From assembly GCA_014190235.1 (NCBI GenBank), contig BJGC01000001.1, forward strand, positions 1 to 44,549: a stretch of 44,549 nucleotides of DNA. Direction: 5' to 3'. The DNA comes from Actinomycetes bacterium. GTDB lineage: Bacteria; Actinomycetota; Acidimicrobiia; Acidimicrobiales; Ilumatobacteraceae. The position numbers and the translations under genes were made by a program. Position 1 is the first letter of the stretch. Every line of letters begins with the position of its first letter. Below, one piece after another: positions 16,345-18,800 of this stretch. The notes under the pieces are model-generated. The model did no database searches and was not told the origin of the DNA. It saw only the letters and a program-made list of their open reading frames with translations.

Positions 16345-17016
16345 GTGTCGAGCAATCTCCCATTAACCCCTCTTGATTGGACTCTCAGTGATTATGTAGG
16401 GACAGCCCGTCAGTTTCATGCAATGGATCTGGACTGGCAACGTGGTGTGTGGCTATGTCGACCAACAGATACCGCTTTGGTGCTGGGGTCCGCTCAAGAT
16501 GAATCGGATATCGATCAAGAGCGTGCTCAACTAGATGGAATCGATATCGTGCGGCGCCGAAGCGGTGGCGGCGCGGTGTATCTCAGTTCTGCATCTGCCG
16601 TGTGGATTGATGTTGTCATTACGCGCGGAGATGCGCATTGGGTAGACGATGTTTCACAAAGTGCGTTGTGGTTGGGACATGCATGGTGTGCAGTGTTGGA
16701 GCAATTTGGAATTGCCGATCTCGAGGTGTACAACGCATCAATGCTGAAATCTGTTGTGTCGCGATCAGTGTGTTTTGCTGGCATGGCCTCGGGGGAGGTT
16801 CTTTCGGGCGGGCGCAAAGTCGTGGGGATTAGTCAGCGACGAAATCGCGACGGCGCGCGATTTCAGTGCGTGTTGTATCGCCAATGGCGCCCCGAAGAAT
16901 ACGCGCACCTTTTTGTGAGCGAAGCAGTGCGAGACGCTGTGCTCTCCCTCGACGTGATCGAAGTGCCGTGTGAACCAGGCGATGTGTTCGTGGCACTTGC
17001 TGCTCAGCTTGGCTAA
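16345..17016 (+). CDS. Lipoate/biotin protein ligase fold protein (LplA-like)
   Basis: A 223-residue protein of the BPL/LplA/LipB superfamily. The substrate-binding motif RRRSGGGAVYL lies near residue 60, and the conserved lysine region SGGRKVVGISQRR follows about 90 residues later. Members attach lipoate or octanoate to carrier lysines. Sequence alone does not tell ligase from octanoyltransferase or a substrate-transfer variant. The start is the GTG at 16345 with a purine-rich GGCAAGAGCGAAG upstream; the longer frame reads into the HNH gene. It is the last gene before the mra cluster. Confidence 0.8.
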   Translation: MSSNLPLTPLDWTLSDYVGTARQFHAMDLDWQRGVWLCRPTDTALVLGSAQDESDIDQERAQLDGIDIVRRRSGGGAVYLSSASAVWIDVVITRGDAHWVDDVSQSALWLGHAWCAVLEQFGIADLEVYNASMLKSVVSRSVCFAGMASGEVLSGGRKVVGISQRRNRDGARFQCVLYRQWRPEEYAHLFVSEAVRDAVLSLDVIEVPCEPGDVFVALAAQLG

Positions 17017-17033
17017 CCCCGCGCTAACCCCGC
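17012..17033. repeat. Tandem 11-base duplication
   Basis: GCTAACCCCGC occurs twice in tandem, covering the stop codon of the LplA-like gene. It is short and could be chance or a small slippage event. Confidence 0.5.
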
Positions 17034-17140
17034 ACGAATCACGCCTCCGGGCGATGTAACGATTCGTTATTGAGTCTTCCCGACCGTGGGGCACCCCCGG
17101 TTTCGGCCCAAAAAGACTTCTCCTTGATGACGCATCTCTA

Positions 17141-17211
17141 AGGGGCATGGTGGGGTTAAGGTGGATAAAAAAGGGGATAAATGGTTGACAGTGGGGACTA
17201 GTGGGGATAAT
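17141..17211 (+). promoter_or_regulatory. Array of 10-base-spaced MraZ-type boxes
   Basis: GGGG-containing or TGG-containing units start at 17141, 17151, 17162, 17172, 17182, 17192 and 17202, that is, nearly every 10 bases. The clearest are TGGGGTTAAG, TGGGGACTAG and TGGGGATAAT. MraZ of E. coli binds direct TGGGN repeats with 5-base spacers in its own promoter, so the period matches. The array covers the mraZ promoter, as expected for autoregulation. Assignment is by pattern only. Confidence 0.7.
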
Positions 17212-17213
17212 GT
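17185..17213 (+). promoter_or_regulatory. Sigma-70-type promoter of the mra/dcw cluster
   Basis: TTGACA at 17185-17190 (perfect -35), a 17-base spacer, then TAATGT at 17208-17213 (near-perfect -10). Transcription should start near 17220, giving a leader of about 40 bases before mraZ. The boxes of the MraZ array overlap both elements. Confidence 0.8.
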
Positions 17214-17259
17214 GTTGGGCGGAGGGAAGCGGTCCCCGCTTCCGTGGAGCGGAGAAGGT

Positions 17260-17676
17260 GTGTTTGTAGGAGTCCACGAGCGACAACTTGACCCCAAGGG
17301 TCGGCTTGCTCTGCCTGCTTCTTTTCGGCCGCGGCTAGAGCCTCGCTGTTACTTGGCATTTGGGCAGGACAAGTGTGTTGACGTTTTAACTGCTGAAGCC
17401 TTTGACCAAGTTGTTCAAGAGACATTGAACAAAGTTCGTTCAGGTGAAATCAATCGCAATCAACAGCGTGCATTGGCTGCCAACACCGTCGAAGTATCGA
17501 TAGATGCGCAGGGTCGAATCAATATCGAAGAGAAGTTACGCGAATACGCCGGACTATCACTGAACACAAAGGTCATTGTTGCTGGCTCATTCGACCGCGT
17601 TGAAATTTGGGACCCAACGAGACACCAACGAATTACTGATGCAGGCACACAGCAAATTGCTGGAGATAGCAAGTGA
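17260..17676 (+). CDS. mraZ: MraZ, transcriptional regulator of the mra/dcw cluster
   Basis: A 138-residue protein with two AbrB-like half-domains, marked by DPKGRLALP and DAQGRINIE. MraZ forms a ring-shaped oligomer that binds repeated boxes in its own promoter and represses the division and wall cluster. The start is the GTG at 17260, with a GGAGAAGG ribosome-binding site at 17251-17258; the frame is open to 17161, but that part is the promoter itself. The first gene of the cluster, followed by a 176-base structured leader before rsmH. Confidence 0.95.
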   Translation: MFVGVHERQLDPKGRLALPASFRPRLEPRCYLAFGQDKCVDVLTAEAFDQVVQETLNKVRSGEINRNQQRALAANTVEVSIDAQGRINIEEKLREYAGLSLNTKVIVAGSFDRVEIWDPTRHQRITDAGTQQIAGDSK

Positions 17677-17852
17677 TGCGTGATGTACGCAGTGAATCTT
17701 TATACACAACAACCATGTCGAGGACTCCGGTCCTTGGCAGTTTCCCGGATGGCACGGTGTGCAGCTTTAACTCCGCCCGCTGTCATCGCGTCCATTCCGG
17801 GGAGAAATCCCGGGGACATTTGCTGTTCGGGAAACTGCCAAGGACCGGCGTT
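17677..17852 (+). ncRNA. Structured leader RNA of rsmH (candidate mraW motif)
   Basis: The 176 bases between mraZ and rsmH hold a small hairpin, TGCGT/ACGCA at 17677-17691, and then a long one. Arms 17727-17747 and 17828-17848 are 21-base perfect complements around an 80-base loop. The loop itself can fold (GCAC/GTGC at 17752-17762; CCGGG/CCCGG near 17794-17812). The right arm contains AAGGA at 17840-17844, the apparent ribosome-binding site of rsmH, which would pair with TCCTT in the left arm. A conserved RNA called mraW is known upstream of this gene in actinobacteria; identity with it is a proposal, not shown. The frame is open across the leader, but this is not coding by family comparison. 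Confidence 0.7.
17727..17848. repeat. 21-base perfect inverted repeat in the rsmH leader
   Basis: Arms at 17727-17747 and 17828-17848 are exact reverse complements, with an 80-base spacer. The left arm starts CCGGTCCTTGGC and the right arm ends GCCAAGGACCGG. Confidence 0.95.
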
Positions 17853-18800
17853 GTGAGCAACAACATGTTTACGCATGAACCCGTCATGCTGGCCGAGATT
17901 CTGGATGTGTTTTCGGATCTCTCAGGCGGAGTATTTTTTGATGCGACTTTGGGTGGAGCGGGACACGCACAAGCGGTGCTTGAGGCTCATCCAAAAATTG
18001 AACTTCTCGGCATCGATCGCGATGAGCATGCAATTGCATTTGCTCGCGAGAGATTGTCTGTTTTTAGCGAGCGTGTCACCCTCCGGCACGCTCGCTTTGA
18101 TCGCGTTGCTGAAGTGTTGACACAGACCAATACCCACTCACTCGCTGGAGTGTTATTTGATCTTGGCGTGTCATCTCCTCAGTTGGATCATGCAGATCGC
18201 GGGTTTTCATATCGCCACGATTCACCACTTGATATGCGAATGGATCAATCGCAGTCTTTCAATGCACTTCAGGTCGTCAATGAATTCACAGCAGAACATC
18301 TCGTCCAAATATTAAAAGAGAATGCTGACGAAAGATTTGCTGGGCGAATTGCCAAAGCAATTGTCCGATCCCGTCCAATACTTACAACTCTTGAGTTAGC
18401 TGAAGTGGTCATCACGGCGATTCCCGCTGCCGCCAGACGTCGTGGTGGCCACCCGGCAAAGCGCACTTTTCAAGCAATTCGCATTGAAGTGAATCATGAG
18501 CTTGCCGTACTCCCCGTTGCTCTTTCGAGTGCCATAGATGCACTTGCTCCTGGCGCACGATTGGCAGTTCTGACGTATCATTCCGGCGAGGATCGCATCG
18601 CAAAGAGCATCATGCGTGATGCCGAGACAGGTGGGTGCGCTTGCCCAGCAACGCTGCCCTGCGTATGTGGACGAAAGGCACTTGTTCGACGGGTGCGCAC
18701 TCCAAAGACACCCTCCGATGCTGAGCAGACTATTAATCGCCGTTCAACAGCAGCGCGTCTACGGGTGGTCGAGCGTCTTGACTCTGGGCTGGAGATATAG
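17853..18800 (+). CDS. rsmH: 16S rRNA (cytosine-1402-N4) methyltransferase
   Basis: A SAM-dependent methyltransferase of about 315 residues (formerly MraW). It begins MFTHEPVMLAEIL after four codons, then DATLGGAGHAQAVL and GIDRDEHAI for SAM, and later FDLGVSSPQLDHADRGFSY and HPAKRTFQAIRIEVN. It methylates C1402 in the ribosomal P site. GTG 17853 is preferred because AAGGA lies 8 bases upstream; ATG 17865 is the alternative. The cysteine-rich insertion CACPATLPCVCG near residue 265 is typical. Its ribosome-binding site is sequestered in the leader hairpin. Confidence 0.95.
   Translation: MSNNMFTHEPVMLAEILDVFSDLSGGVFFDATLGGAGHAQAVLEAHPKIELLGIDRDEHAIAFARERLSVFSERVTLRHARFDRVAEVLTQTNTHSLAGVLFDLGVSSPQLDHADRGFSYRHDSPLDMRMDQSQSFNALQVVNEFTAEHLVQILKENADERFAGRIAKAIVRSRPILTTLELAEVVITAIPAAARRRGGHPAKRTFQAIRIEVNHELAVLPVALSSAIDALAPGARLAVLTYHSGEDRIAKSIMRDAETGGCACPATLPCVCGRKALVRRVRTPKTPSDAEQTINRRSTAARLRVVERLDSGLEI

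Follow-up and report, generated by a model that had tools for sequence, protein, structure and literature searches.

An RNA already described from the position ahead of rsmH is the mraW RNA (RF01746), known from Actinomycetales (PMC2864571), and observation of a mraW leader transcript is reported for Corynebacterium glutamicum (PMC3890552). In the copies read, this RNA sits between mraZ and rsmH and forms a long hairpin with a C-rich conserved apical loop, as does the leader analyzed here. The leaders of S15, L20, and S4 offer a further parallel, as each precedes a gene of the translation apparatus and is structured, with a loop that resembles the rRNA site bound by the gene product, whereas the product here is a modifying enzyme and a candidate binder at most, and the likeness is short. 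The 23S methylase gene ermC is reportedly autoregulated through rRNA-like mRNA, and its leader, like the present one, is a structured leader of an rRNA methylase gene that occludes the start; however, ermC confers resistance, is induced by the drug, and has a stalling peptide, while rsmH serves a housekeeping role and no stalling peptide is in evidence for it. In cmpA, a stem covers the mRNA start region and translation can depend on RsmH activity, but that short stem occupies the stretch from the ribosome-binding site to the first codons (PMC13317604). The element here differs from cmpA in being the leader of rsmH itself, with a far more stable stem and a conserved loop.

The window, by which we mean the whole stretch of 44,549 nucleotides from a member of the Acidimicrobiales (class Acidimicrobiia, phylum Actinomycetota), contains a hairpin between mraZ and rsmH that is far beyond chance. 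Its 21-base arms (CCGGTCCTTGGCAGTTTCCCG on the left), which an earlier note on this DNA had reported, are exact reverse complements when the sequence is read directly, AAGGA lies 8 nt 5' of the GTG at 17853 and faces TCCTT in the opposite arm, and GTTG/CAAC spans the start codon region at 17850–17861, all of which proved correct to the base. The hairpin ranks top among the eight inverted-repeat pairs listed for the window (44.5 kb), where its extended arms (17724–17754 and 17821–17851) are 87% complementary, and none of 200 shuffles is as stable as the native fold, either for a 241 nt segment (z = −6.5) or for a 128 nt segment (z = −8.9). The 80 bases that had been described as its loop do separate the arms, but they are closed rather than open and fold into two further hairpins, both conserved. 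RNAalifold on an alignment of 32 leaders (A1, below) returns three helices in a branched arrangement with 29 pairs in the longest, and the element is accordingly modeled as a branched RNA in which a long stem, P1, bears the hairpins P2 and P3 (Table 1). Two class members carry short copies without P3, from which P1 and the P2 loop look like the core of the element. A simple scan of 17000–18000 found neither terminator nor promoter. Just 5' of mraZ, the window also shows repeated GTGGGG/AGTGGGGA motifs at 17140–17235, which may be MraZ DNA boxes.

Table 1. Features of the mraZ–rsmH region in the window (positions count from the first base of the window)
Feature	Position	Strand	Basis or remark
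Whole leader RNA element, P1+P2+P3	17719..17852	+	R1 match of 138.6 bits, the window copy itself belonging to the R1 training set; RNAalifold structure
P1 5' arm	17724..17753	+	Holds left arm 17727-17747 and TCCTT 17731-17735; mapped from A1
P1 3' arm	17822..17851	+	Holds right arm 17828-17848
P2 5' arm	17755..17765	+	Alignment A1 / RNAalifold
P2 loop UUUAACUCCGCCC	17766..17778	+	Most conserved unpaired stretch
P2 3' arm	17779..17788	+	Alignment A1 / RNAalifold
P3 hairpin CCGGGG-AGAAA-UCCCGG	17797..17813	+	L163 and L164, both short copies, lack it
AAGGA, candidate ribosome-binding site for GTG 17853	17840..17844	+	Paired within P1
GTG, previously proposed rsmH start	17853..17855	+	Overlaps, as GTGA, the TGA of the 57-codon ORF
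GGAG and, on the mraZ stop, GTG 17673-17675, a candidate rsmH start further upstream	17662..17675	+	Would place the hairpin within the CDS
57-codon upstream ORF across the hairpin	17683..17856	+	TGA overlaps GTG 17853; basis is the open frame only
mraZ	17260..17676	+	Start picked by eye; ORF open from 17161
rsmH (mraW)	17853..18800	+	ORF open from 17673; PF01795 at G000:C1:17868-18776

A 701-base stretch around the leader found matches in 34 of the 61 own and related genomes, and the closest named rsmH match, at 94% identity, comes from an Acidimicrobiaceae metagenome-assembled genome (L006). A1 comprises 32 distinct leaders aligned with MAFFT, with structure not used in aligning; only leaders with CTCCGC[CT] were admitted (L017 and L020 were excluded), so the invariance of the loop in A1 is partly built in. 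A second alignment, A4, fits 99 model-found sequences to the structure of R1, a covariance model built from the 32 leaders, and leans toward that structure by construction, which A1 does not; alignments A2 and A3 were set aside because they included antisense matches. In A1, 94.7% of the cells are paired, a value that drops to about 46% when the partner is shifted by one base, and two-sided changes occur at 25 of 44 pairs against a shuffle mean of 15.2, with none of 500 shuffles attaining any of the five covariation measures. In A4, two-sided changes occur at 41 of 44 pairs and, again, none of 500 shuffles is as good. The earlier note had proposed a conserved RNA leader of rsmH and covariation of its arms in relatives as the check; the element passed this check in both alignments, and the proposal is borne out by them and by its presence in 146 genomes of the order.

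With stricter filters in all searches over more than 40 genomes, so that absences are lower bounds, R1 matches 146 of the 248 genomes of the order, in 94 of 159 genera, and 9 of the 246 genomes in a draw from the phylum, all nine of them in the same class. A broader model, R2, matches 22 of the 296 genomes in a second phylum draw, 21 of which belong to the class; the remaining match (G205) was judged false, as it adjoins an nrdG-like ORF and no rsmH-like ORF is among those listed within 2.5 kb. Within the class, families beyond this order's own also carry the element, and no credible match to it was found outside the class in these two draws of 246 and 296 genomes. Each of the 126 copies examined (out of 135 sense copies, L134, L139, L149, L150, L156, L178, L181, L186, and L223 being omitted) is followed by rsmH in the same orientation, and mraZ lies upstream in 157 of the 157 distinct loci tested, its stop codon being mis-assigned in some of these, e.g., L093 and L096. 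The element is a real, class-wide structured RNA family. It is apparently undescribed so far, as no description of it was found in open-access full text or in Rfam 15.

Among 22 rsmH loci from R1-negative genomes, R2 recovers the element in nine (one cut at a contig end) and finds no match in 13, so the element is dispensable. Seven loci of the same family (L270, L272–L276, and L279) gave no R2 match. At L270, L273–L276, and L279, rsmH stands close behind mraZ with the element absent, and these are natural losses; L272 has kept a longer mraZ–rsmH gap, yet is without the element.

The earlier note had suggested that the leader may be a divergent member of the mraW RNA family or a different element, and the membership was rejected. 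RF01746 gave no match in the window at gathering score, none in 17300–18100 even at E up to 10, and none over the cut-off in the 61 own and related genomes or in 15 further leader loci, while the same model, as a positive control, scored over the cut-off in 8 of 197 phylum genomes and in Corynebacterium glutamicum. In the reciprocal direction, R1 found none in 10 mraW loci (L116–L125) at E up to 1, and R2 found none in L116–L125, L301, L302, L316, and L321 at E up to 0.1. Weak RF01746 matches (E up to 10) were present in 13 genomes, and in the 11 compared, G037 and G044 being omitted since no rsmH was found there, none coincides with the place of the leader or rsmH. Fold and loop differ as well: the mraW RNA folds as one hairpin, unbranched and with an internal pattern peculiar to it, whereas the element here is branched into P1, P2, and P3, and the mraW loop, ACUUCCCC, is shorter than the ACUCCGCCC on P2. 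By these models, the mraW RNA and the element are separate families in an equal position, which may still share a common descent beyond the models' reach. The five other Rfam matches in 17300–18100 are eukaryotic microRNA and lncRNA families far below their cut-offs and were discarded as chance matches of the kind that any long hairpin gives.

Two further loci show structures of another kind near rsmH. In a small genome of another class (L296), the mraZ–rsmH gap holds a palindrome unlike the present one, TGCCGGCTGAGAG ... CTCTCAGCCGGCA, on the minus strand of the locus, and a 9.2 Mb genome of the phylum (L309) carries a hairpin-like CCTTCCC ... GGGGCGGGGA upstream of rsmH, also on the minus strand of the locus, which from its sequence is perhaps another rsmH leader type.

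A conserved, covarying structure fixed upstream of one gene is what is found in this family, and in that respect it resembles a cis-regulatory leader. We consider it probable, although well short of certain, that the leader acts in cis on the translation of rsmH and that its loop is read by a trans-acting factor. P1 would end at the rsmH start region, the P2 loop, with the near-invariant consensus ACUCCGCCCGCU, would serve as the recognition site, and P3 would usually be present. The folded P1 would restrain rsmH translation. Whether the stem opens would be decided by a trans-acting factor that reads the P2 loop, or else by ribosomes coming down from mraZ. A point against this reading is the stability of P1, about −80 kcal/mol by folding and so high that an opener must exist.

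The earlier note had rsmH switched off by sequestration of its ribosome-binding site and start codon, and this part of its reading is supported in about half of the family. A pattern scan found a start codon at one conserved place of the P1 3' arm: in 61 of 126 copies it follows a purine run and is in frame with rsmH, in 30 of 126 it opens a separate ORF, and 35 of 126 have no start there. A looser count, which accepts any ATG or GTG that falls in frame within the final 36 nt, gives 69 of 126, 63 of these with an SD-like motif. L131 and L228 are examples with both SD and ATG in the arm. In a typical 3' arm, GGUCGAGGGGCUGCAGAUGAGC, the purine run and the AUG are paired to the 5' arm. The stem persists in the 35 copies without a start, so burial of the start cannot be its sole function, and for the species of the window sequestration is doubtful.

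In the genus of the window, the region between mraZ and rsmH appears to be read by ribosomes. The distance from the loop to rsmH is constant modulo 3 at 24 of 24 distinct loci, where the spacers measure 36, 45, or 90 nt on the 5' side of the element and 0, 6, 9, 15, 18, 24, 27, 30, or 48 nt on the 3' side, so that all lengths, three upstream and nine downstream, are multiples of 3. The rsmH frame runs through the element without a stop, being interrupted at none of 27 loci. The mraZ end is correctly displayed for 22 of the 24 loci, and every one of these has a GTG that overlaps the mraZ stop and is preceded at 7 nt by GGAG, the GGAG doubling as mraZ code. The composition of the spacers gives the rsmH frame +23.6 bits and the other two −57.0 and −165.7, with the first 60 nt of rsmH as a positive control (+69.2, −238.6, and −33.8). 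The spacers show no third-position excess (0.562/0.524/0.565), which is against the coding reading; this codon-phase count had no usable positive control, as the rsmH stretches were unaligned, and the composition test with its control replaced it. In this genus, ribosomes most likely cross the RNA in the rsmH frame from 17673, to judge from frame and composition, and the GTG at 17853 is then perhaps a secondary start, or an internal one. Since the region is probably translated from 17673, sequestration of 17853 may not be the main control here. The RNA would then have been absorbed into the translated region, either in an N-terminally extended rsmH, whose candidate extension encodes a peptide such as GSLPDGTVVSSNSAR, or in an upstream ORF with a GTGA/ATGA overlap, and control would work via ribosomes traversing the stem. 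The rsmH frame is open over 17673–17852, and the annotated RsmH start in the genus may err by about 60 codons in either direction.

Translational coupling is the foremost alternative to the favored cis-regulatory reading, and a possible one, although we hold it to be the less probable: ribosomes that have translated mraZ, or a small ORF running through the hairpin to a GTGA/ATGA junction with rsmH, would melt the stem and restart on rsmH. A second frame that spans the hairpin and whose stop overlaps an rsmH start is present at 24 of 24 loci of the window genus and at all four loci of the L009 group, where it starts at an ATGA on the mraZ stop. Such a frame exists at 105 of 157 distinct loci, but this is weak evidence since frames elsewhere are mostly open; outside the window genus and the L009 group, the three frames are open in 108, 100, and 88 of 129 loci. 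In the window genus, composition favors the rsmH frame over the small ORF, and coupling alone leaves the near-invariant loop unexplained.

The P2 loop reads UCCAACUCCGCCC in most members of A1, its pattern fits 125 of 126 model-found copies (the exception is L252), and in the 99 sequences of A4 its columns hold C98 U99 C99 C99 G94 C99 C99 C97 G95 C97. Since the leaders that trained R1 were selected by part of this pattern, some of the invariance in model-found sequences is built in as well. The stretch CCGCCCG at 17773–17779 of the window equals positions 1399–1405 of 16S rRNA and, in the genome's own rRNA, occurs once in 16S and is absent from 23S. We take 16S positions 1396–1405 (E. coli numbering) to be the segment that RsmH methylates, in which case C17776 would be the equivalent of C1402. 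When the loop consensus was scored along the 16S and 23S rRNA of the same genome in windows of 40 nt, its best score fell at this site, where ACUCCGCCCG agrees with ACACCGCCCG at 9 of 10 positions; the other rRNA windows all score lower, and 1.7% of shuffled windows reach the score of the site. In an ungapped profile scan, the site tops 16S with 13.5 bits, but 23S reaches 14.2 with two places higher than the site, and shuffled rRNA has a median maximum of 14.9, which puts the site within chance. The match is suggestive, and within chance by one of two tests. The comparison of rRNA windows gave no support for P3 as a mimic of the other h44 strand or of the RsmH site, and the mraW RNA loop has no clear support as a mimic of that site, better 23S places existing for it. 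Pairing of the P2 loop to rsmH or mraZ sequence showed no excess over shuffled loops at 157 loci, the mean fraction of shuffles with a complement at least as long being 0.56 downstream and 0.58 upstream; in the window alone, an 8-nt complement to the loop is present (GGCGGAGT).

On this likeness one could build substrate-mimic autoregulation, in which RsmH would bind the P2 loop as a copy of its 16S site around C1402 and so limit its own synthesis, an idea that we regard as attractive but unlikely. The agreement at the site favors it, as does the fact that the gene controlled encodes the enzyme for that very site, and rRNA mimicry by ribosomal-protein leaders is well documented (PMC7247131). 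The profile scan and the shuffled windows that equal the site weigh on the other side; moreover, the loop of the window itself ties with one 23S place, U at the place of A1398 is invariant (99 of 99 in A4), and P3 is unlike the site. The substrate of RsmH was reported to be 30S subunits and not free 16S rRNA (PMC5053481), and the homologue METTL15 binds RNA via the backbone without sequence specificity (PMC10828496). We are equally doubtful about the wider proposition that rsmH is controlled via a class-wide RNA whose loop copies the C1402 nucleotides of the decoding center, as an RsmH decoy or a methylation sensor, with the start in the same stem.

Methylation feedback would require no binding of RsmH to the leader: a buried start would make rsmH translation need RsmH-methylated ribosomes, and the leader would sense methylation through them. 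We rate this somewhat lower still. In Bacillus subtilis, MraW-modified ribosomes better translate mRNAs with stem-held early codons, according to a 2026 preprint (PMC13317604), and the rsmH start lies within the stem in nearly half of the leaders (61 of 126). However, an over-stabilized stem abolished translation in that preprint, and P1 is very stable; the feedback also leaves the near-invariant loop and the start-less copies unexplained.

That the element is protein code, namely an N-terminal domain of RsmH with the hairpin as a by-product, seems to us very improbable. The open rsmH frame across the element and the frame-preserving spacers of the window genus point in its direction, but base pairs change in a compensatory manner in A1 and A4, the composition of the element is negative in every frame in the window genus, and no third-codon-position excess is present within it. 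Outside the window genus and the L009 group, moreover, the loop lies in differing frames relative to rsmH (38/63/28 of 129 loci). With this frame unlocked there, and few stops in any of the three, the family taken together is RNA, not protein code. A mobile or chance palindrome, or a mere RNase III processing site, is hardly credible either, since the long near-perfect stems that would be typical of such elements are here those of a leader that is single-copy, its sole full-length match in the genome being its own locus (for which a mobile repeat was rejected), and that is fixed before rsmH in all copies examined, while a double-strand cutter alone would not need a near-invariant loop.

The operon for cell wall and division starts with rsmH, whose product fine-tunes the decoding center, yet the control of RsmH synthesis is hardly known. 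Actinomycetales have the mraW RNA before rsmH, and a second, class-wide RNA at that place suggests that this gene came under RNA control more than once, or that such control has diverged unrecognizably. The near-invariant loop is a short and directly testable recognition site, and in the genus of the window a regulatory RNA has apparently been taken into coding sequence.
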